DNA from: a virus
Virus record (IMG/VR): IMGVR_UViG_3300015024_000006
Coordinates: 1-53,002 of that record
Direction: 5' to 3' (one strand)
DNA length: 53,002 bases
Of this stretch, positions 26,456 through 49,101 are shown one piece after another; positions within the stretch are counted from its first letter, which is position 1, and every line of letters begins with the position of its first letter. A program made the position numbers and the translations under genes. Below the pieces are notes generated by a model, which ran no database searches, was not told the origin of the DNA, and saw only the letters and a program-made list of their open reading frames with translations.

Positions 26456-27460
26456 ATGCAAACGATTATCGACAGCACGTCCACAATGGACCTCTCAGCA
26501 ATCAGCGATGGCCTTAGTATGCCATCGCTGATTGAAGCCTTTGCGCAATCCAAGTACAAACGTAGTCGATCCGACCGTACCCGATCGACGTATCGAGAGA
26601 CGATGCAATCCTTCCGTGCATTCGTGGATGGCATCGGCGGCGATCTCGATAGCGACCCGAAGATCATTACCGCATTCGCCGCTGATTGGGCGATGATCAG
26701 CGGCGACAAAGGAGAGCCAAGCGCAGCCACGTTTTCGCAGCGTCTGGCGATCGTCTCCTCCTTCTATGCGTTTTGTATCCGGCGCGGCTACCTGCCGACC
26801 TATACCAGTAATCCCATATCCGCGATCGATCGCGCACCCGTGCAATCGTACCGCGCCGCGACATACCTACCGACTGAGACCGTACAGAGCGTCTTGCAAC
26901 GCATCGATCGCAGCACTCAAAAAGGCATGCGGGATTATGTCTTGCTCTGCCTGGGATTAGAGACGGCACGCCGTGTCACAGAGATTGCTAACCTCACGAT
27001 CGGCGATCTGCTCATGACCGGCGATCGGATGGTTGTGCAATGGCAACGTACAAAAGGCGGTAAACGGGCTGAGGATGAGTTGGAGCCGACCCTCGCACAC
27101 AACATGCGGTCGTACTGTTACGCCGCGCATGGTCCCGCATGGCGATCGCAGCCGCAATCACCGCTGTGGATCTCGTTCCAGCCTGGAACAAAACGGCGAT
27201 TTGGGCGCGATGGTATTACCGCAATTTGCTTGCAATATTTTGGTACGGGCAAAGTCCACACGCTGCGTCACACGACGGCAAAGACGATGGAAGATCAAGG
27301 CGCATCGCTCACACAAATCCAGCACAAGCTCGGACATGAGAGCGTCGCCACCACCGCACGCTATCTCACCCAGGTGAAAAAAGCACACAACCCATACGCT
27401 GGCCAGTTAGCAACCGTATTCGGTTTCACAGAAGTAGAAGTAGAGGTAGAAGCACCATGA
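26456..27460 (+). CDS. int: Tyrosine recombinase (integrase)
   Basis: 334 residues. N-terminal SAM-like core-binding domain (about 20-110, SDRTRSTYRETMQSFRAFV). Catalytic domain with R173 in TARRVTEIANL, the beta-hairpin Lys in QRTKGGKR, H268-x-x-R271 in VHTLRHTTA, H294 in LGHES and Y303 in TARYLTQV. All six catalytic positions are present. It could integrate the prophage, or, given ParABS, resolve plasmid multimers as Cre does in P1. No attP core could be identified. The C-terminus ends in a short EVEVEVE run. Confidence 0.93.
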   Translation: MQTIIDSTSTMDLSAISDGLSMPSLIEAFAQSKYKRSRSDRTRSTYRETMQSFRAFVDGIGGDLDSDPKIITAFAADWAMISGDKGEPSAATFSQRLAIVSSFYAFCIRRGYLPTYTSNPISAIDRAPVQSYRAATYLPTETVQSVLQRIDRSTQKGMRDYVLLCLGLETARRVTEIANLTIGDLLMTGDRMVVQWQRTKGGKRAEDELEPTLAHNMRSYCYAAHGPAWRSQPQSPLWISFQPGTKRRFGRDGITAICLQYFGTGKVHTLRHTTAKTMEDQGASLTQIQHKLGHESVATTARYLTQVKKAHNPYAGQLATVFGFTEVEVEVEAP

Positions 27461-35341: not shown

Positions 35342-35590
35342 TTACCTTCCTGGCTTTAAACGATACACCTGCTCCACAATAGTGTTTTCAAGCAGCCATT
35401 GTTGAAACACCGCATAGTCGATGGCGATCGCGTTGCCGAACTTCGTGGATGGCAGCGGATTCTTGCGGATCGTAATCCACGATCGGATTTTGGTCTCTTC
35501 GATGCCGGATAACCGCACAAGCTCTTTCAGCGTGATCATATGCGCGATGGATGCCTGATCGGGAACGGACTGATCGGGCTGTGTCATCAT
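35342..35590 (-). CDS. Small HTH (AlpA/excisionase-like) regulator
   Basis: 82 residues. HTH: ITLKELVRLSGIEETKIRSWITIRKNPLPSTKFG followed by a wing (NAIAIDYAVFQQWLLEN). This is the MerR-like excisionase/AlpA pattern. First gene of the minus operon opposite csrA, under a near-consensus promoter; may regulate the switch or act as excisionase. Confidence 0.75.
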   Translation of the reverse strand: MMTQPDQSVPDQASIAHMITLKELVRLSGIEETKIRSWITIRKNPLPSTKFGNAIAIDYAVFQQWLLENTIVEQVYRLKPGR

Positions 35591-35633
35591 GGTGCCTGCC
35601 TCTTTTCTGTAGTCATACTGTTGACTATCAACT

Positions 35634-35662
35634 AGTATACTCTTCGCGCATCAATTCGTCAA
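35634..35662 (-). promoter_or_regulatory. Promoter of the 35590-33842 minus operon
   Basis: Minus strand TTGACG (35662-35657), 17-bp spacer, TATACT (35639-35634). A GTTGA-CTA-TCAAC near-palindrome (35620-35632) lies at the start site. Confidence 0.8.
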
Positions 35663-35680
35663 CATAATGAGGTTATCTGA

Positions 35681-35698
35681 GCAAATAGTTTTATTTGC
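35681..35698. promoter_or_regulatory. Palindromic site GCAAATA-GTTT-TATTTGC
   Basis: Perfect 7-bp arms; located between the two divergent promoters, 13 bp upstream of the csrA -35 box. Likely operator. Confidence 0.65.
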
Positions 35699-35710
35699 CT
35701 AACAGTACCA

Positions 35711-35739
35711 TTGACAGATACAAGTATGTCGTGTAAGCT
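35711..35739 (+). promoter_or_regulatory. csrA promoter
   Basis: TTGACA (35711-35716), 17-bp spacer, TAAGCT (35734-35739). About 45-nt leader to the ATG at 35786. Confidence 0.68.
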
Positions 35740-35785
35740 ACTCTCATCACAGAGTGATGACCACAACGAAAAGGAAGTAGCAAGC

Positions 35786-36061
35786 ATGCTGGTACTACGG
35801 CGCAAAGAAGGCGAGTCCATCATCATGAATGGCGTCATCAAAGTGACCATCCTGGCAGTCGAGGGCGATCGCGTCAAGATCGGCATCGATGCCCCACCCG
35901 ATGTGATTATCGTGCGCGAGGAACTGCTCAACGAGGCAGAAAACAGTACACGCCACAATCCCCCACACGCCATCCGTATCCCCGCGATGGCAGCACCCGA
36001 TCGCACCATTGCCGACCATCACATCTATGACGAAAAGCAGAAAGAAGGGACACCTGAGTGA
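35786..36061 (+). CDS. csrA: CsrA-family translational regulator
   Basis: 91 residues from 35786 (AAGGAAG upstream). Residues 1-48 are a clear CsrA: MLVLRRKEGESIIM, VEGDRVKIGIDAPPDV, VREEL, including L4, R6 and R44, the residues that contact GGA motifs in RNA in known CsrA. It dimerises and usually blocks ribosome sites of target mRNAs. V43 replaces the common His. The C-terminus is about 30 residues longer than usual (61) and His/Pro rich. GTGA overlap with the next gene. Target unknown: could be host mRNAs or the phage's own late messages. Confidence 0.93.
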   Translation: MLVLRRKEGESIIMNGVIKVTILAVEGDRVKIGIDAPPDVIIVREELLNEAENSTRHNPPHAIRIPAMAAPDRTIADHHIYDEKQKEGTPE

Positions 36062-37134
36062 GCATCGCACTAGACAATCCATCATTCATCGGCACCATGC
36101 GCGAAGCCGTGAGCGACGCGCAACCCAAAGCCATCACCATGAAAACCGTTGGCCTCCCTGGTTTCGTCAGGTGGTTCTTTCAGATCTTCGCATTGGTGAT
36201 CTACGGACCTGATATGTACTTCAGCTATCAGATCTATACCAAAAATGGTGAACTGGTCGCGGGGGATATCTTTCATGCCGCACCCGCGATCATCCTGTTT
36301 GCCACACTCAGTGCTGGTACCGTTGGCATGGCGTACCTGCTGTCTGTCCTGGCTCCGTTCCATTGGCGCAAGGGGCATCGTACCATCGCACTCACATGCG
36401 GTATCGGCGTCCTGATTGCAACTGCCGTGACGATCCTCTTCTCCCTCGCCTATCGCAGCGAGAACCCTGTCACCTACGCATTCGATGCGACGTTACGGCA
36501 GTGGATCGGCATACAGAGCATATCGCCGATCCAATTCATCGCCGCCTTTGCCCCGCCATTCTGGGGCCTCTTCTGGGCCATCGTGCAGCCTACCGATACC
36601 AAGAGCGAGGCAGAGATCGCCGCTGACGACCCCGACGCCGTAGCCAAGATTCAGCACAAGGCAATGGTACAAACAGCACAGATCGAAGCAGCATCTAATC
36701 TGGCACAAGCCAAGGCAGCCGCCAATGCTCTCGCACGTGGCGCTCAGTTAAAAGGATTGATCAGCACAGCACGCGAGGCAACACATGCCGTACAGCAACA
36801 GATCGCACCATCCACCATCGAGACCGCCAGCACGCCACCAGAGGCAGCACAGAGCATTGAGGAGAGTATCCCTGCTGTGACAGAGCAAGAGGTAGAAGTT
36901 ACTGAGGACGTGATAGGCATACCTGTCATGAGCAACAATGTCGCACCGCAAACGGAGGCAGCGGTCTATGCACCCAAGCTCACGAAGATTGATGTCCGTA
37001 GCGCGTTCAACCAGATCGCCGCGAAAGGGGTGAAACCAACTGTCGAAGATGTTGCAGAGCACTTGAATGATACGGTTGCTAACGTCACCCCGTTTTTTGA
37101 TGAGATCATGGCGGTCAAAACAGGCAGACGTTAA
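36058..37134 (+). CDS. Membrane protein with C-terminal DNA-binding-like domain
   Basis: 358 residues from a GTG overlapping the csrA stop. Membrane segments at about 38-55 (FVRWFFQIFALVIYG), 76-100 (AIILFATLSAGTVGMAYLL), 115-132 and 158-178 (IQFIAAFAPPFWGLFWAIV), then a long Ala/Gln/Glu coiled coil (about 180-270) and a C-terminal winged-helix-like region (SAFNQIAAKGVKPTVEDVAEHLNDTVANV). It lies between csrA and parA; by layout it could tether plasmid DNA or the partition complex to the membrane (inference). No named family recognised. Confidence 0.75.
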   Translation: MSIALDNPSFIGTMREAVSDAQPKAITMKTVGLPGFVRWFFQIFALVIYGPDMYFSYQIYTKNGELVAGDIFHAAPAIILFATLSAGTVGMAYLLSVLAPFHWRKGHRTIALTCGIGVLIATAVTILFSLAYRSENPVTYAFDATLRQWIGIQSISPIQFIAAFAPPFWGLFWAIVQPTDTKSEAEIAADDPDAVAKIQHKAMVQTAQIEAASNLAQAKAAANALARGAQLKGLISTAREATHAVQQQIAPSTIETASTPPEAAQSIEESIPAVTEQEVEVTEDVIGIPVMSNNVAPQTEAAVYAPKLTKIDVRSAFNQIAAKGVKPTVEDVAEHLNDTVANVTPFFDEIMAVKTGRR

Positions 37135-37159
37135 TCCAAAATGATGCAACCGTTCACAC

Positions 37160-37177
37160 TTTATGCACGTGCATAAA
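37160..37177. promoter_or_regulatory. 18-bp perfect palindrome, candidate parS/par operator
   Basis: TTTATGCACGTGCATAAA, located 41 bp before the parA start. Centromere-like palindromes commonly stand directly up- or downstream of parAB. No second copy noticed by eye. Confidence 0.72.
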
Positions 37178-37218
37178 ATCGGCATGACTGAATAATCACA
37201 CAGAGAGCAGAGGAAAAC

Positions 37219-38100
37219 ATGACCATCATTACCGCATCGGAGAACAAAAAAGGCGGCGTCGGCAGAACCACCACCGCGATTAATTTGGGGACGATCCTTG
37301 CATCCGTGTATGGAGAGCGCGTCTTGCTCATTGACTGGGACGCCGATCGCTGCCTCACAGATGGCCTTGCGGGTGGTGCCTTCGATGCCCATGCCGCCAA
37401 TCGTCTCAATATTCTCGATTGCATGGCTGATAGTAAGAATGGTTTCGATAGCGCCGTCGTACCATTCCCCATCGCACGCTACACAGAGGCAGCACACCAC
37501 ATGGCGACACTGATCGATGTGCCTTGGCAATCGGGAGGCAGTGTCGATATCATCACCGGATCGGAGGATCTGTCCGAGGCACCCGAACGCTTTACCACGA
37601 TCCGCCAGCCTGTCGCCACCTTTGAACAATCGCTTCATTGGATGTTGCGTCAACCCGACGTGACCGATCGGTGGGATCGGGTGATTCTCGACATCGGCCC
37701 TGGCTGGGACATCACGGCGAAAACCGCATTGTTTGCCGCTGATGAGGCAATCATTCCTGTTGAACCTGCTTCACTCTCGATCGAGGCGTTCAAGCGTCAC
37801 AACTTGCGTATCAGCCGAGGCAACACGGAACGGAAACGGGCGGGACTGCCAGGCCAAACCGTCATCAAAGGTGTGTTCGTTTCGCGCATCTCCCTCGCGT
37901 CGCCAGTGCATCAGCATTTTGCTGCTGGTATTCGTCAGATGTTGGCCAGTGGGAATATCCGCTGTTTCGACACGATGATCCCTAACAGTGACGCGATCCT
38001 CGCCGCCATGAGTAACCATACACCGGCATGGGGGCAATACCCCGATGATGAAGGGGCACAAGCGTACGCCTATCTCGCAAAGGAAGTGAAAGCATCATGA
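37219..38100 (+). CDS. parA: ParA-family partition ATPase
   Basis: 293 residues. Deviant Walker A K11-GGVGR16-TT: the signature lysine K11 is kept but the usual P-loop lysine is Arg. Walker A' VLLIDWDADR, Walker B VILDIGPGWD (about 156-165), C-terminal EAFKRHNLRISRG and VFVSRISLAS. ParA binds ATP and nucleoid DNA and moves ParB-parS complexes for segregation. The stop overlaps parB by ATGA. Confidence 0.92.
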   Translation: MTIITASENKKGGVGRTTTAINLGTILASVYGERVLLIDWDADRCLTDGLAGGAFDAHAANRLNILDCMADSKNGFDSAVVPFPIARYTEAAHHMATLIDVPWQSGGSVDIITGSEDLSEAPERFTTIRQPVATFEQSLHWMLRQPDVTDRWDRVILDIGPGWDITAKTALFAADEAIIPVEPASLSIEAFKRHNLRISRGNTERKRAGLPGQTVIKGVFVSRISLASPVHQHFAAGIRQMLASGNIRCFDTMIPNSDAILAAMSNHTPAWGQYPDDEGAQAYAYLAKEVKAS

Positions 38101-39359
38101 CGATCAATCCACATGACGATCTCACACTGACTGATGATCTCTTCAAGCTCGAGGGAGCAAAGCCTGTCATGGGCACTGATATCGTCATGACGACGATGAC
38201 CGGCATCACGGAACGGTCGATGGTGATGGGCGCTGCCGTCACTCCTATTACGCAAGTGAACGGCGTTCCTATCGGCAGAGCGGTCGGAACGTTACTCATG
38301 GTCTATGTGGCGCAATTACGTTTACCAGAGGACACAGTCCGACGTGGCTATGATCCGAATACGGATGAGACGTTCGACACGTTGCGGATCAGCATCGAAC
38401 AAACCGATCGATGTAATCTTGATCCGTTACTCTGTGAAGTAACGGATGAGATGATCGACGTAGAAGGGATCGCCCGTCCGATCGTCCTGGTACGATCAGG
38501 CACCCGTCGCTATCACGTATTGACGCAGATCGGCGCATCAGAAGCACTGATCCGCGTGTTGCCACGTGACGCAGATGCACGAATCGTAACGTTGATCTCC
38601 TTGATCGCCAATGAAATGCGTGAACCATTACCCGTGCTCGATCAGGCCGATATCATCGCCATGATGATTGATGAGTACGGATTGAAGCAGCAGGTCATCG
38701 CGCAACATGCGGGCTACTCGCAATCCAAGGTATCGCGCCTGTGGACGATCAGCAAACAACCCCCACTCATCAAAACATATGTCTCCAATGAAAGCATCGA
38801 CTTTGCCACCGTAGAAGCGCTCAATAAACGGTTCAAAGAGGATGTCCAACAACGCGAATTAGCTGCACGGTATATCGTGCAAGAAGGGGGATCGATCGGC
38901 GTCAATGATCTCGCGAACCAGATCGCCCCCCCACCAGGAATCGCCGTCACAGGACGATTAGAGATGCGTGGCGATCTCGTGCATCTCCTCCCAATGGGAC
39001 TAGCAGCAAGCAAGAATAGCGCATTGCGCTTAGTGAGCGATCGGAAAGATAAACCAGAGGAGCCGATCCACTATTGGAAGCGTGGCGCTCCTATTAAAGC
39101 CGATCCGACGCGCATCTTGAAACAACACCATGCGGTCATCGTGCAAGGCACATTCGAGGCACCGACGATCGGCGTCAAATCCTTGCACATCACCCAACTG
39201 CTGAAGATGATAAAAGGTAGTGAGATGGTCGATATGGCGGCATTGGAGGAGGCGATGCTCAGCGACCTACAAGCCATCCAGGAAGGCATAGATGCGATGC
39301 CACCGCCAGCAGAGACAGAGGATGCAGAGGGGGTGATTGTAGACGCAGTAGCAAACTAG
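38097..39359 (+). CDS. parB: ParB-like partition protein
   Basis: 420 residues. N-terminal ParB/Srx-like region: LRISIEQTDRCNLDPLL ... IARPIVLVRSGTRRYHVLTQIGASEA (ParB 'I-V-D-G-RR' type motif, about 95-160), then PVLDQADIIAMMIDEYGLKQQVIAQHAGYSQSKVSRLWTIS, a typical central HTH (about 180-222). The C-terminal 200 residues contain an additional region and an acidic tail. It should bind parS near 37160-37177. Divergent; ParB is assigned from HTH order and linkage to ParA. Confidence 0.85.
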   Translation: MTINPHDDLTLTDDLFKLEGAKPVMGTDIVMTTMTGITERSMVMGAAVTPITQVNGVPIGRAVGTLLMVYVAQLRLPEDTVRRGYDPNTDETFDTLRISIEQTDRCNLDPLLCEVTDEMIDVEGIARPIVLVRSGTRRYHVLTQIGASEALIRVLPRDADARIVTLISLIANEMREPLPVLDQADIIAMMIDEYGLKQQVIAQHAGYSQSKVSRLWTISKQPPLIKTYVSNESIDFATVEALNKRFKEDVQQRELAARYIVQEGGSIGVNDLANQIAPPPGIAVTGRLEMRGDLVHLLPMGLAASKNSALRLVSDRKDKPEEPIHYWKRGAPIKADPTRILKQHHAVIVQGTFEAPTIGVKSLHITQLLKMIKGSEMVDMAALEEAMLSDLQAIQEGIDAMPPPAETEDAEGVIVDAVAN

Positions 39360-40070: not shown

Positions 40071-40361
40071 TCAGAATTGCGACGGCTTGACGAAAAAACT
40101 GCCCTCGGTCGCGGCGATAAACGCGCCCGTCGTCTCGAAACGGTAGTAGTAATAGCCCTGCTGTGCTGCCAGGATATCGACATAGTATTTACCAGTGGCA
40201 CTCTGTATCAAGGCAGCATCCACGCCATACACCAGCGATGTCGCCACGCCGCTCTGATTGCGGTATCGACACGTGACGGCGCTCACAGCGATGTCTACGG
40301 TGCCATTCGTGAACTCAGCAGAGATCCGTACGAGGGATGTTTTGTCATAGCTGTTGGTCAT
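40071..40361 (-). CDS. Small structural protein at the end of the late operon
   Basis: 96 residues. Beta-sandwich-like: SLVRISAEFTNGTVDIAVSAV, VTCRYRNQSGV, GKYYVDILAAQQGYYYYRFETTGAF. The pattern fits an immunoglobulin-like fibre or decoration module. ATGA overlap with the repeat fibre gene upstream suggests a partner of that fibre. Confidence 0.72.
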   Translation of the reverse strand: MTNSYDKTSLVRISAEFTNGTVDIAVSAVTCRYRNQSGVATSLVYGVDAALIQSATGKYYVDILAAQQGYYYYRFETTGAFIAATEGSFFVKPSQF

Positions 40362-42205
40362 GCAATTGCTCCTAAGCTATCTAATATGGTCATCACGACT
40401 GCCGCGCTATCGGAGAGTAGGCAGATCGCGTTCGTTGGTGCATCGGAGATCAGGCACATCACCGCATTGGTAGGCGCATCGCTCACGATACACACGATCG
40501 GCTGTGTCATTGCCGATAGGGGCAGTGTTGCGGGTATGGCTCTGCGCTGAATCGTGAGCAAAGGAACAGCAGCGGGGATCGTGCGTGTGGGCGTCGTCAG
40601 AAAAGAGAGCGGCATCGCGGCTGCCACGATGCGCATGTTTGTGGACTGCACCGGCAGTACCGCGCCGATCGTGCGTGTTGCTATCGCCAGTACAGGCAGT
40701 GATGCACCAACCACGCGGCTATTCGTCGCCATAATGGGCAATGCGGCTGGAACGATGCGTGCTGCCGTGCCAAGCATCGGCAGTGCTGCTGGTACCGATC
40801 GCTGCCGCATTGACTGCAATGGGACAGCGGCAGGAACGGTGCGTGTTGCTGTTGTCAATATAGGCATTGATGCTGGTACATTGCGCGTCGCGGTCGCAAA
40901 GAGCGGCAGAGCGGCAGGGACAGCACGGCTTGACGTGGCCAAGAGCGGCATCGCTGAAGGAATGGACCGCGTGAGTGATCCCGCCAGAGCGAGCGGCATC
41001 GCAGCGGACAGCACACGGCTATTCGTCGCAACTACGGGCATCGATGCTGGTACATTCCGCATTGCGGTCGCTAACAGCGGCAGAACAGCGGGGATAGTGC
41101 GGCTAGTGGTTAGCAAGAGCGGCAGAGCAGCCGCTAGCGATCGCGTGGATGTCGCCAGTACAGGCATGCTAGCAGGTATTGATCGCGTGGAGGTTTTCAA
41201 GAGCGGCATCGCTGCGCCGATGCTTCGGCTATTCGTGCTGAGTAGGGGCAGAGCAGCAGGGATAGATCGCGTACTAGTAATGAGTAGTGGCACTGATGCT
41301 GGTATAGATCGCGTATTCGTTGCGAGTAGTGGCACTGTCCCTGGAACGTTGCGCGTCAAAGTACTCAGTAGCGGGGAGCTCGCAGGGACAGATCGCGTGG
41401 CGGTACTGAGCATCGGCATCGATGCTGGTATATTGCGCGTGGTAGTTGCGAGTAGCGGGAAACTAGCAGGAATAGATCGCGTGGTGGTTTTCAGCAGCGG
41501 CATTGATGCTACTATGTTACGTGTAGAGGTAGCTAAGATCGGCAGCGCCGCTAGGACATTGCGAATAGAGGTAGCCAACAGCGGCAGAGATGCAGGTATT
41601 ATTCTGTTAGGAGCATAGCCAGGCGTGACCACCTGCGAGGTATTGCTACCAGTGGTGACGCCCGATCCTTCGTTCCACACCATTGTCGCCGCGCCGCTCG
41701 CAGAGCCATTGGTCGTGATGTTGAGCCAGATATCGATGTAGAGCTTATCGCCTGTGACGAAATTGGCTGATGACAGACTGACCGCAGTAGCCGTATACGT
41801 GGCACTGACCGTGGTAAACGCCTGCGCAGCGAGATTGTTACTCCCAATGAGCGTATAGACACCAGCATTATATTTATAAAAGCGCGTGATGATATCGGCG
41901 GTCGCGGTGCCGACGCTGATATGCCCTCGCTGGGTGCTCTGCCAGTTGCCAGCGATGATCTGCTGCCCTTCCATCGCAGTCACATCGTAGAGCCACCCAT
42001 GCCCCGAGGGAGCACCCAAACTGCCAGCACCCGCCCATGCGGTAGCCGTCCCAGGGGCATAGATTTCGCCGTAGCCCGTGGATGTGCCAACCAGTATCGT
42101 CTTATTGGTGCTAGTGCCAGCACCCGCGACGATGATCTGATTCGCCGTGGCTATGGTGGTTGCTGCCGTATTAGTGAGGTACGCGGTCAGTGCAATTGCG
42201 GTCAT
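40358..42205 (-). CDS. Tail fibre with 26 tandem 14-residue repeats
   Basis: 615 residues. Residues 1-195: beta domain (STGYGEIYAPG, GHGWLYDVTAMEGQQIIAGNW) shared with the GH5 tail protein (45646-48564). Residues 201-568: 26 repeats of about RSIPASMPLLATST, 24 of 14 and two of 16 residues, with Arg at the start, Pro at position 4 and Pro-Leu-Leu around 8-10. Residues 569-603: three short repeats of SDAPTNAV-CLI type. No aromatic belt or membrane helix. Probably an elongated fibre or spike shaft; the periodicity is unlike the usual collagen or triple-beta shafts known to me. Confidence 0.8.
   Translation of the reverse strand: MTAIALTAYLTNTAATTIATANQIIVAGAGTSTNKTILVGTSTGYGEIYAPGTATAWAGAGSLGAPSGHGWLYDVTAMEGQQIIAGNWQSTQRGHISVGTATADIITRFYKYNAGVYTLIGSNNLAAQAFTTVSATYTATAVSLSSANFVTGDKLYIDIWLNITTNGSASGAATMVWNEGSGVTTGSNTSQVVTPGYAPNRIIPASLPLLATSIRNVLAALPILATSTRNIVASMPLLKTTTRSIPASFPLLATTTRNIPASMPMLSTATRSVPASSPLLSTLTRNVPGTVPLLATNTRSIPASVPLLITSTRSIPAALPLLSTNSRSIGAAMPLLKTSTRSIPASMPVLATSTRSLAAALPLLLTTSRTIPAVLPLLATAMRNVPASMPVVATNSRVLSAAMPLALAGSLTRSIPSAMPLLATSSRAVPAALPLFATATRNVPASMPILTTATRTVPAAVPLQSMRQRSVPAALPMLGTAARIVPAALPIMATNSRVVGASLPVLAIATRTIGAVLPVQSTNMRIVAAAMPLSFLTTPTRTIPAAVPLLTIQRRAIPATLPLSAMTQPIVCIVSDAPTNAVMCLISDAPTNAICLLSDSAAVVMTILDSLGAIA
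40502..41605 (-). repeat. 26 x 42-bp coding repeat array in the fibre gene
   Basis: Length 1104 bp equals 24 units of 42 bp plus two of 48 bp. Units are similar but diverged at DNA level, so the array is old or under selection for the protein pattern. Confidence 0.88.
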
Positions 42206-42689: not shown

Positions 42690-43208
42690 TCACGCCTCGT
42701 CGTAGGTCAAAACCACATTCGGTAATGCAGCGACACCAGCGCCGATGATGAACGTATTATCGACGGCTGCCACGATAACCGCCATCATGCCGTTTGGTCC
42801 GGTGCCTGATGTAGCGACGGACGTATTATCGTACTGCGCAGCGGTCGTGCTCATCAATGTATACCCCGCTGGCACCGCGCCATTGCTGCCCGATGCTGCC
42901 GGAAGGTTGCCCACTGCTGCCTGTGCATAGCTGCCGACTGCTAGCGCCTTCCAGTGCAAGAAGAGCCCTGTCGATGCTGCCGATGCGAGGGAGACGCGCC
43001 TATTGGTGATAGCCGTCGTGCCAGCAACCGTGACGCTCAACACGATGTTCTTGATCCATGTGTACGCGGTACCTGTCGCGGTAGGGATCGGTGTCGTGCT
43101 CAATCCGCCGATCGTATCTTCGCGATTCCACTTCACGCCGCCTTCGGCGTTGACCCAGGTCGCGGTACTACCCGTTGCGAGTTGTGCTTGCGAAGTAGCT
43201 GCTGCCAT
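42690..43208 (-). CDS. Virion protein, paralogue of 48577-49101
   Basis: 172 residues, beta-rich and low in charge. Shares with 48577-49101: ATW-N, NREDT, WIK-VLSVT, ITNRR/ISNRR, HWKALAVGSYAQAA, ASGSNGA-PAGYT, AQYDNTSV and a final YDEA. Probably a tail fibre-associated or receptor-binding module. Sits ahead of the repeat fibre genes as its paralogue sits ahead of the GH5 gene. Confidence 0.78.
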   Translation of the reverse strand: MAAATSQAQLATGSTATWVNAEGGVKWNREDTIGGLSTTPIPTATGTAYTWIKNIVLSVTVAGTTAITNRRVSLASAASTGLFLHWKALAVGSYAQAAVGNLPAASGSNGAVPAGYTLMSTTAAQYDNTSVATSGTGPNGMMAVIVAAVDNTFIIGAGVAALPNVVLTYDEA

Positions 43209-48576: not shown

Positions 48577-49101
48577 TTACGCCTCATCATAGCCAAGTAG
48601 CAGGGTTGGCATGGCAGCCGCATTGTTGGCACCTGCTGCATAGGTGTTATCGACGCCCAGACAGATGACGACCATTGACCCTGTGGGGCCTGTGCTGGCA
48701 GTCGAGACGGACGTATTGTCGTATTGCGCGGTGCTTGTCGTGACGGCGGTATAACCAGCGGGTATGGCCCCATTGCTGCCGGAAGCAGTGGGCATGTTGC
48801 CTGCCGCTGCCTGCGCATAACTGCTCACTGCCAAGGCCTTCCAGTAGACAGTGATACCCGTCGCGGTGGCTGCCGAATTGGAGATACGGCGATTGCTGAT
48901 CGAGGTCGTACCACCTGTGGTAACGGAGAGGACCATGCTCTTGATCCATGAGAAGTTGGTGCCAGCGGCGGCAGGAAGCGGAATGATATTGGTCGTGCCA
49001 TTGGTGGTATCTTCTCTGTTGTATTTGCCGCCCGTCTCGATGTTGAGCCACGTTGCGGAACCGCCGACGCTGTTTTGTGCCTGTACGACTGCATTGGCCA
49101 T
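48577..49101 (-). CDS. Virion protein, paralogue of 42690-43208
   Basis: 174 residues. Strong internal agreement with 42690-43208 over nearly the full length (SATWLN, NREDTTNG, SNRRISNS, YWKALAVSSYAQAA, SGSNGA-PAGYT, QYDNTSV, GYDEA). Placed immediately before the GH5 tail gene, so each fibre-type gene has its own copy. Function unknown; likely a fibre adaptor. Confidence 0.8.
   Translation of the reverse strand: MANAVVQAQNSVGGSATWLNIETGGKYNREDTTNGTTNIIPLPAAAGTNFSWIKSMVLSVTTGGTTSISNRRISNSAATATGITVYWKALAVSSYAQAAAGNMPTASGSNGAIPAGYTAVTTSTAQYDNTSVSTASTGPTGSMVVICLGVDNTYAAGANNAAAMPTLLLGYDEA

Follow-up and report, generated by a model that had tools for sequence, protein, structure and literature searches.

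Type I ParABS systems of plasmids and phage-plasmids (e.g., P1, F/Sop, N15, and LE1) place the genes for a ParA ATPase and a ParB helix-turn-helix (HTH) protein in a single operon, with a palindromic centromere beside parA, and their usual track is the nucleoid. KfrA proteins—accessory proteins from plasmid replication and partition regions—combine an HTH with a coiled coil and have, to our knowledge, no membrane domain; we know of no plasmid or phage whose partition operon has been described as also encoding a membrane partner with a tail of the DNA-binding type. Noc and other membrane-binding ParB-like proteins attach parS-like DNA to the membrane (PMC8429893). Streptomyces SpdB2 is an oligomeric, integral membrane plasmid protein that binds DNA nonspecifically (PMC4170104), and on SLP2, ParABS and Spd1 are redundant in intramycelial movement (PMC13245405). 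Mobile elements and phages also carry copies of host CsrA, including Legionella CsrT, Pseudomonas RsmH/RsmM, and the CsrA of Burkholderia phage JC1 (PMC7366521, PMC9144972). Here we describe a locus in the IMG/VR virus record IMGVR_UViG_3300015024_000006, whose 53,002 nt make up the whole stretch analyzed (hereafter, the window). Positions 35786–39359 encode, in order, csrA, a membrane protein with an HTH-like tail (M), parA, and parB. With a probability of roughly 0.55, we read this block as a ParABS-type maintenance cassette in a temperate Ktedonobacteria phage, with M as a membrane-anchored accessory third protein and a host-derived csrA in front.

A Partition Module with a Candidate Centromere

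Is the partition module genuine? A first-pass annotation, made from the sequence alone, had proposed the four genes as a plasmid-like control block; all four open reading frames (ORFs) are present and belong to the families it named, and the partition assignment is borne out by profile matches. ParA (37219–38100, + strand; 293 aa) matches AAA_31 (3.6e-21) and the ParA-like phrog_164 (7.8e-33), and its place in a ParA tree agrees. ParB (38097–39359, + strand; 420 aa) has a central HTH, matches HTH_ParB (7.1e-8) and phrog_1033 (3.1e-9), and has ParB and Noc chains in the Protein Data Bank (PDB) among its nearest solved relatives. ParBs usually carry GERR and ENxxR-type CTP-binding motifs; at these positions, the phage protein reads, by eye, GTRR and NEMRE. 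Start and stop codons overlap between csrA and M (GTGA) and between parA and parB (ATGA), which would fit operon coupling, as in translationally coupled pairs.

The 84-bp gap between M and parA holds a perfect 18-bp palindrome, TTTATGCACGTGCATAAA (37160–37177), 41 bp before the parA start; the first-pass annotation makes no mention of it. It is the longest in the genome and occurs once; no further copies that would form a parS cluster were found in the phage. Palindromes of at least 18 bp are expected by chance about 0.33 times in the whole genome and thus about 0.0005 times in this gap. The palindrome centers on CACGTG, which is also the center of canonical chromosomal parS. We consider it a strong candidate for parS, in a position that would suit an operator as well. 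Compared with the type I systems, then, the phage has a similar operon and a similarly placed centromere candidate, but its block is led by csrA and a membrane-HTH gene, its ParA lacks the P-loop lysine, its ParB is highly divergent, and the same genome encodes an integrase.

The first-pass annotation had also described the middle protein as joining membrane helices to a DNA-binding-like domain, and this architecture held up. M (36058–37134, + strand; 358 aa) has membrane helices within residues 35–175 (36160–36582, + strand), three or four in number as judged from hydropathy and conservation; the membrane part is modeled with low confidence. In the AlphaFold2 model, they are followed by a coiled-coil-like helix of 58 residues (192–249; 36631–36804, + strand), a disordered linker, and a three-helix HTH domain (residues 310–357; 36985–37128, + strand) with a predicted local distance difference test (pLDDT) score of about 90. 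A separate model of the tail, made together with its relatives, reached a mean pLDDT of 86.7. Among solved structures, the tail comes closest to the HTH domains of sigma region 4, MntR/IdeR, and TetR (Z values reach 6.1 and Foldseek probabilities 0.99, yet E is above 0.1); with the whole model, Foldseek gave usable matches for the HTH tail alone. These results lend good support to the predicted HTH fold, and the tail may bind DNA. A kinship of M with KfrA was considered and rejected, as the KfrA_N match in the tail (14.4 bits; E = 0.066) falls below the Pfam cut-off of 26.1 bits.

Recurrence of the Membrane Protein–parA–parB Order

Is the gene order conserved in relatives? The first-pass annotation had made its reading depend on this, and the answer differs for the two ends of the block. 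Its csrA end is not conserved: no member of a set of 46 viral records or fragments with related terminases carries csrA and parA together (csrA occurs in one, G039, and ParA in another, G008), and the closest near-complete relative, G004, which is possibly incomplete, has no csrA and no AAA_31 match. Single-protein searches of viral contigs with ParA, M, or ParB also returned no relatives. The rest of the order fared better. A search of the class Ktedonobacteria with the phage ParB, successful first in genome G270, led to five elements with the order membrane protein–palindromes–parA–parB: G270 contains four of them (L170, L171, L172, and L184), and G056 contains the fifth (L183). None of the five was seen to have a csrA as neighbor.

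Several lines of evidence tie these cassettes to the phage. In a tree of 86 ParAs, the five cassette ParAs branch together as sister to the phage protein (support 100/97), which sits on a long branch. The phage ParA scores 99 bits against that of L171, vs. at most about 77 bits among the plasmid and phage matches listed and about 82 bits for other viral ParAs. The phage ParB aligns with the cassette ParBs over 263 columns (probability 90; E = 1.7e-6), and the alignment takes in an N-terminal stretch ahead of the HTH that they have in common. The gap between the membrane gene and parA contains perfect palindromes of at least 16 bp in four of the five cassettes and a near-perfect one in the fifth (L172). 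Their arms—TTTTACGCGCGTAAAA, GTTCACGCGCGTGAAC, TTCCACGCGCGTGGAA, and TTTCCCGCGCGGGAAA—are specific to each element, as would be seen if ParB/parS pairs were codiverging. At 76 other viral ParA loci, by comparison, a palindrome of at least 16 bp lies within 250 bp upstream in only two cases, and a same-strand protein with at least three transmembrane segments lies within 1.5 kb upstream in none.

By eye, the cassette membrane protein has a layout similar to that of M, with membrane helices followed by a long middle part and an HTH-like tail at the end. No homology between the two families was detected (hhalign probability 0.2), so the membrane component was either replaced or changed beyond recognition. 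Plasmid records contain no match to the cassette membrane protein. Membrane protein–parA–parB is thus a recurrent arrangement of Ktedonobacteria elements, found in a virus and in mobile elements of its host lineage. The four cassettes of G270, a metagenome-assembled genome (MAG), have differing palindromes, which suggests several compatible replicons or islands. The G056 cassette (L183:7350–11183) lies on a 168-kb contig, a few kilobases from putative multihelix transport- and NADH-dehydrogenase-like genes, and may be a chromosomal island.

Origins of M and CsrA

Where do the two leading genes come from? Ten relatives of M, at 36–41% identity, turned up when bacterial genomes were scanned, on contigs labeled mostly Ktedonobacterales or Chloroflexi. 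Their membrane domains match that of M almost letter for letter at places (VGMAYLLSVLAPWHW and APPFWGLFWAIVQP), the motifs VGMAYLLSVLAPFHW and APPFWGLFWAIVQP are invariant or nearly so, and they too end in an HTH-like domain. Of the 18 genomes of the class that are nearest, a profile search recovered a single full-length member in each of 16 (1e-146 to 1e-205), and it recovered none in the other 29; when 400 Chloroflexota genomes were sampled, the family was confined to those same 16. Viral contigs (searched with the single protein and with a profile) and phage records contained no relatives of M. In an alignment of ten, M has the features of this unnamed family (L094–L103 and L116–L131): a membrane domain that is conserved, a coiled coil, and an HTH at the C terminus. 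The family matches no Pfam entry and is widespread in one Ktedonobacteria lineage. Compared with the host forms, the phage copy is reduced in length and diverged (36–41% identity to them vs. 52–76% among them). Shorter relatives of the membrane domain, with no obvious HTH tail, also occur (L141:8296–9057, L143:6078–6974, and L145:1778–2557); those in L141 and L143 have an integrase and a weakly Rep-like gene nearby, which points to integrated elements.

CsrA (35786–36061, + strand; 91 aa) consists of a CsrA domain (residues 1–51; PF02599 at 1.7e-19, over the cut-off) and a 40-residue tail. In the alignment, it carries Leu4 and Arg44, the residues usually named for RNA contact. A Ktedonobacteria CsrA to which it is 72% identical stands apart from flagellar genes, and csrA is found in 8 of 10 such genomes. 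The gene looks like an acquisition from the host rather than an exotic one, and both CsrA and the membrane domain of M appear to originate in Ktedonobacteria families. Unlike in the mobile-element paralogues, csrA here opens a partition operon and has Ktedonobacteria CsrAs as its closest kin. The earlier statement that CsrA is rare in phages stands: 5 of 50,697 phage records match at E ≤ 1e-3, and a published survey found CsrA in 30 of 2,517 phages (1.2%; PMC7366521). A scan for GGA motifs as CsrA targets was uninformative, matching solely sites that resemble ribosome-binding sites.

Upstream of csrA, the intergenic region 35591–35785 separates the operon from a divergent small gene (35342–35590, − strand) that resembles HTH_17/excisionase proteins (phrog_1864 at 1.4e-5 and phrog_66 at 6.5e-5; HTH_17 at E = 0.011, below the cut-off). 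The region contains a perfect TTGACA hexamer (35714–35719) and an imperfect inverted repeat (arms 35613–35625 and 35658–35670), and scans for promoters and terminators gave matches at about chance level. The related phage G039 has a csrA 60% identical to this one (L091:8346–8555); there the gene precedes a different small gene, lies divergently to replication genes, and has no parAB with it. Hence csrA seems to be a movable gene at divergent early promoters.

Maintenance Cassette or Something Else?

How might the block work? ParB would load at the 37160–37177 palindrome as its parS, and ParA and ParB would then move, space, or distribute circular copies of the prophage. M would sit in the membrane with its coiled coil reaching out and its HTH tail holding phage DNA, the nucleoid, or ParB—a tether that would keep the copies positioned and inherited. 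CsrA could bind mRNAs, either of its own operon or of the host, and so tune maintenance or lysogeny. Membrane tethering of DNA, parS binding, an extrachromosomal state, and control of host translation are all steps that we infer. Noc offers a partial parallel, as it couples parS-like DNA to the membrane and is among the nearest solved relatives of the phage ParB; Noc, however, binds the membrane through its own amphipathic helix, whereas in the phage a separate multihelix protein would do so.

A number of observations weigh against this maintenance reading. The phage encodes a tyrosine integrase (26456–27460, + strand; PF00589 at 4.5e-17). The Walker A motif of its ParA reads KKGGVGRTT rather than KGGxxK[ST]: the signature lysine is kept, and the P-loop lysine is replaced by arginine (codon 37264–37266), a substitution unique to the phage protein in the set of 77 ParAs whose motif could be read. 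The protein may be impaired, or the arginine may be an assembly or population variant. The HTH domain of M has a net charge near zero, and its binding to DNA or ParB is putative. A ParA-like gene divergently upstream of the host M counts in favor, but it occurs in only 3 of the 16 host genomes, and these three ParAs are alike, so the neighborhoods probably reflect one event. Four of the five cassettes come from one MAG, and M agrees with the cassette membrane proteins in position and layout alone. The genome has the makings of a phage-plasmid (i.e., terminase, portal, capsid, and tape measure genes together with parAB), but the integrase and the P-loop arginine call for caution about that status and about ordinary ParA action. 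The first-pass suggestion of a plasmid-like prophage is a possibility rather than an established state, because of the integrase.

Several of these same observations could be explained differently. If the prophage integrates by its tyrosine integrase, ParA, ParB, and the palindrome might form a regulatory or genome-organizing switch (e.g., an autoregulated operon or lysogeny control) rather than a partition system. The P-loop arginine and the operator-like position of the palindrome would suit such a switch, as would relative G004, which has an integrase homologue and no AAA_31 match. ParB with a parS-like palindrome is nonetheless the standard equipment for partition, the integrase could act as a resolvase, and a circular assembly is compatible with both states; we regard the switch as unlikely, if the strongest of the rivals. 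Known Ktedonobacteria are filamentous and grow as mycelium, a habit in which a plasmid-spread function resembling that of SpdB2 would make sense. This reading, a serious rival that we nevertheless rank behind the switch and hold to be improbable, draws on the membrane and DNA-binding character of SpdB2 (PMC4170104), on the ParABS/Spd1 redundancy of SLP2 (PMC13245405), and on the tailless relatives of M in integrated elements. SpdB2 and Spd1 resemble M in being integral membrane proteins of mobile elements, with DNA binding predicted in the case of M. Yet M has no Pfam match to the Spd/DUF2637 families up to E = 1 (nor do its relatives), has an ordered C-terminal HTH, and stands directly before parA–parB; no transfer genes were noted in the phage, and this small-genome host group may not share the mycelial habit.

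The last alternative starts from the host family. With one full-length member in each of 16 of the 18 nearest host genomes and a shorter, diverged phage copy, M might be the phage's version of a transcription factor or nucleoid anchor that the host keeps at its membrane, used to imitate or block the host protein, and its place before parA would be incidental. Against this, the same position in five other parA–parB cassettes is taken by a membrane protein that is unrelated in sequence and also ends in an HTH-like tail; we rate this alternative the least probable of the three. That two membrane proteins unrelated in sequence share position and layout would make envelope anchoring of small replicons testable. 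A broader proposal can be built on the maintenance reading, one that we find possible but on balance doubtful: mobile elements of Ktedonobacteria would carry a partition system of four parts. One part, a dedicated HTH protein anchored in the membrane and recruited by convergence on two or more occasions, would tether ParB–parS or the nucleoid to the membrane. ParA-driven segregation would thereby be anchored to the envelope, and the phage would have put the system under a host-derived RNA regulator.

The Virus, Its Host, and Its Relatives

The virus record coincides with the window, and its two ends share a terminal repeat of ~125 bp; the 53-kb genome is therefore either circularly closed or redundant at its termini. 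Its genes include a tailed-phage set (terminase, portal, capsid, head morphogenesis, and tape measure proteins) along with a primase-helicase, a sigma factor, an Erf-like annealing protein, and a methyltransferase, in addition to the integrase. The host, a soil bacterium, most likely belongs to a Ktedonobacteria (Chloroflexota) lineage, because the relatives of M (36–41%), CsrA (72%), and the terminase (57%, on a contig in one genome from the same group) are found there; this gives a host to an otherwise unplaced virus. The GenBank set contained no near-identical phages. Two short viral contigs from other samples (L003 and L004), with terminases 98% and 96% identical, are very close relatives and lack the length to extend into the par region. 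G004, at 75% terminase identity, has structural genes in common with the phage. The proteins at 42690–43208 and 48577–49101 (− strand) both match one and the same gene in G004 and G008 and are therefore probably paralogues that arose by duplication in the tail region. Adjoining the tail-fiber genes, a 615-aa protein (40358–42205, − strand) has many short repeats of the type SRxIPAxxPLLATxTR, and its gene contains a two-copy, 84-bp tandem repeat.

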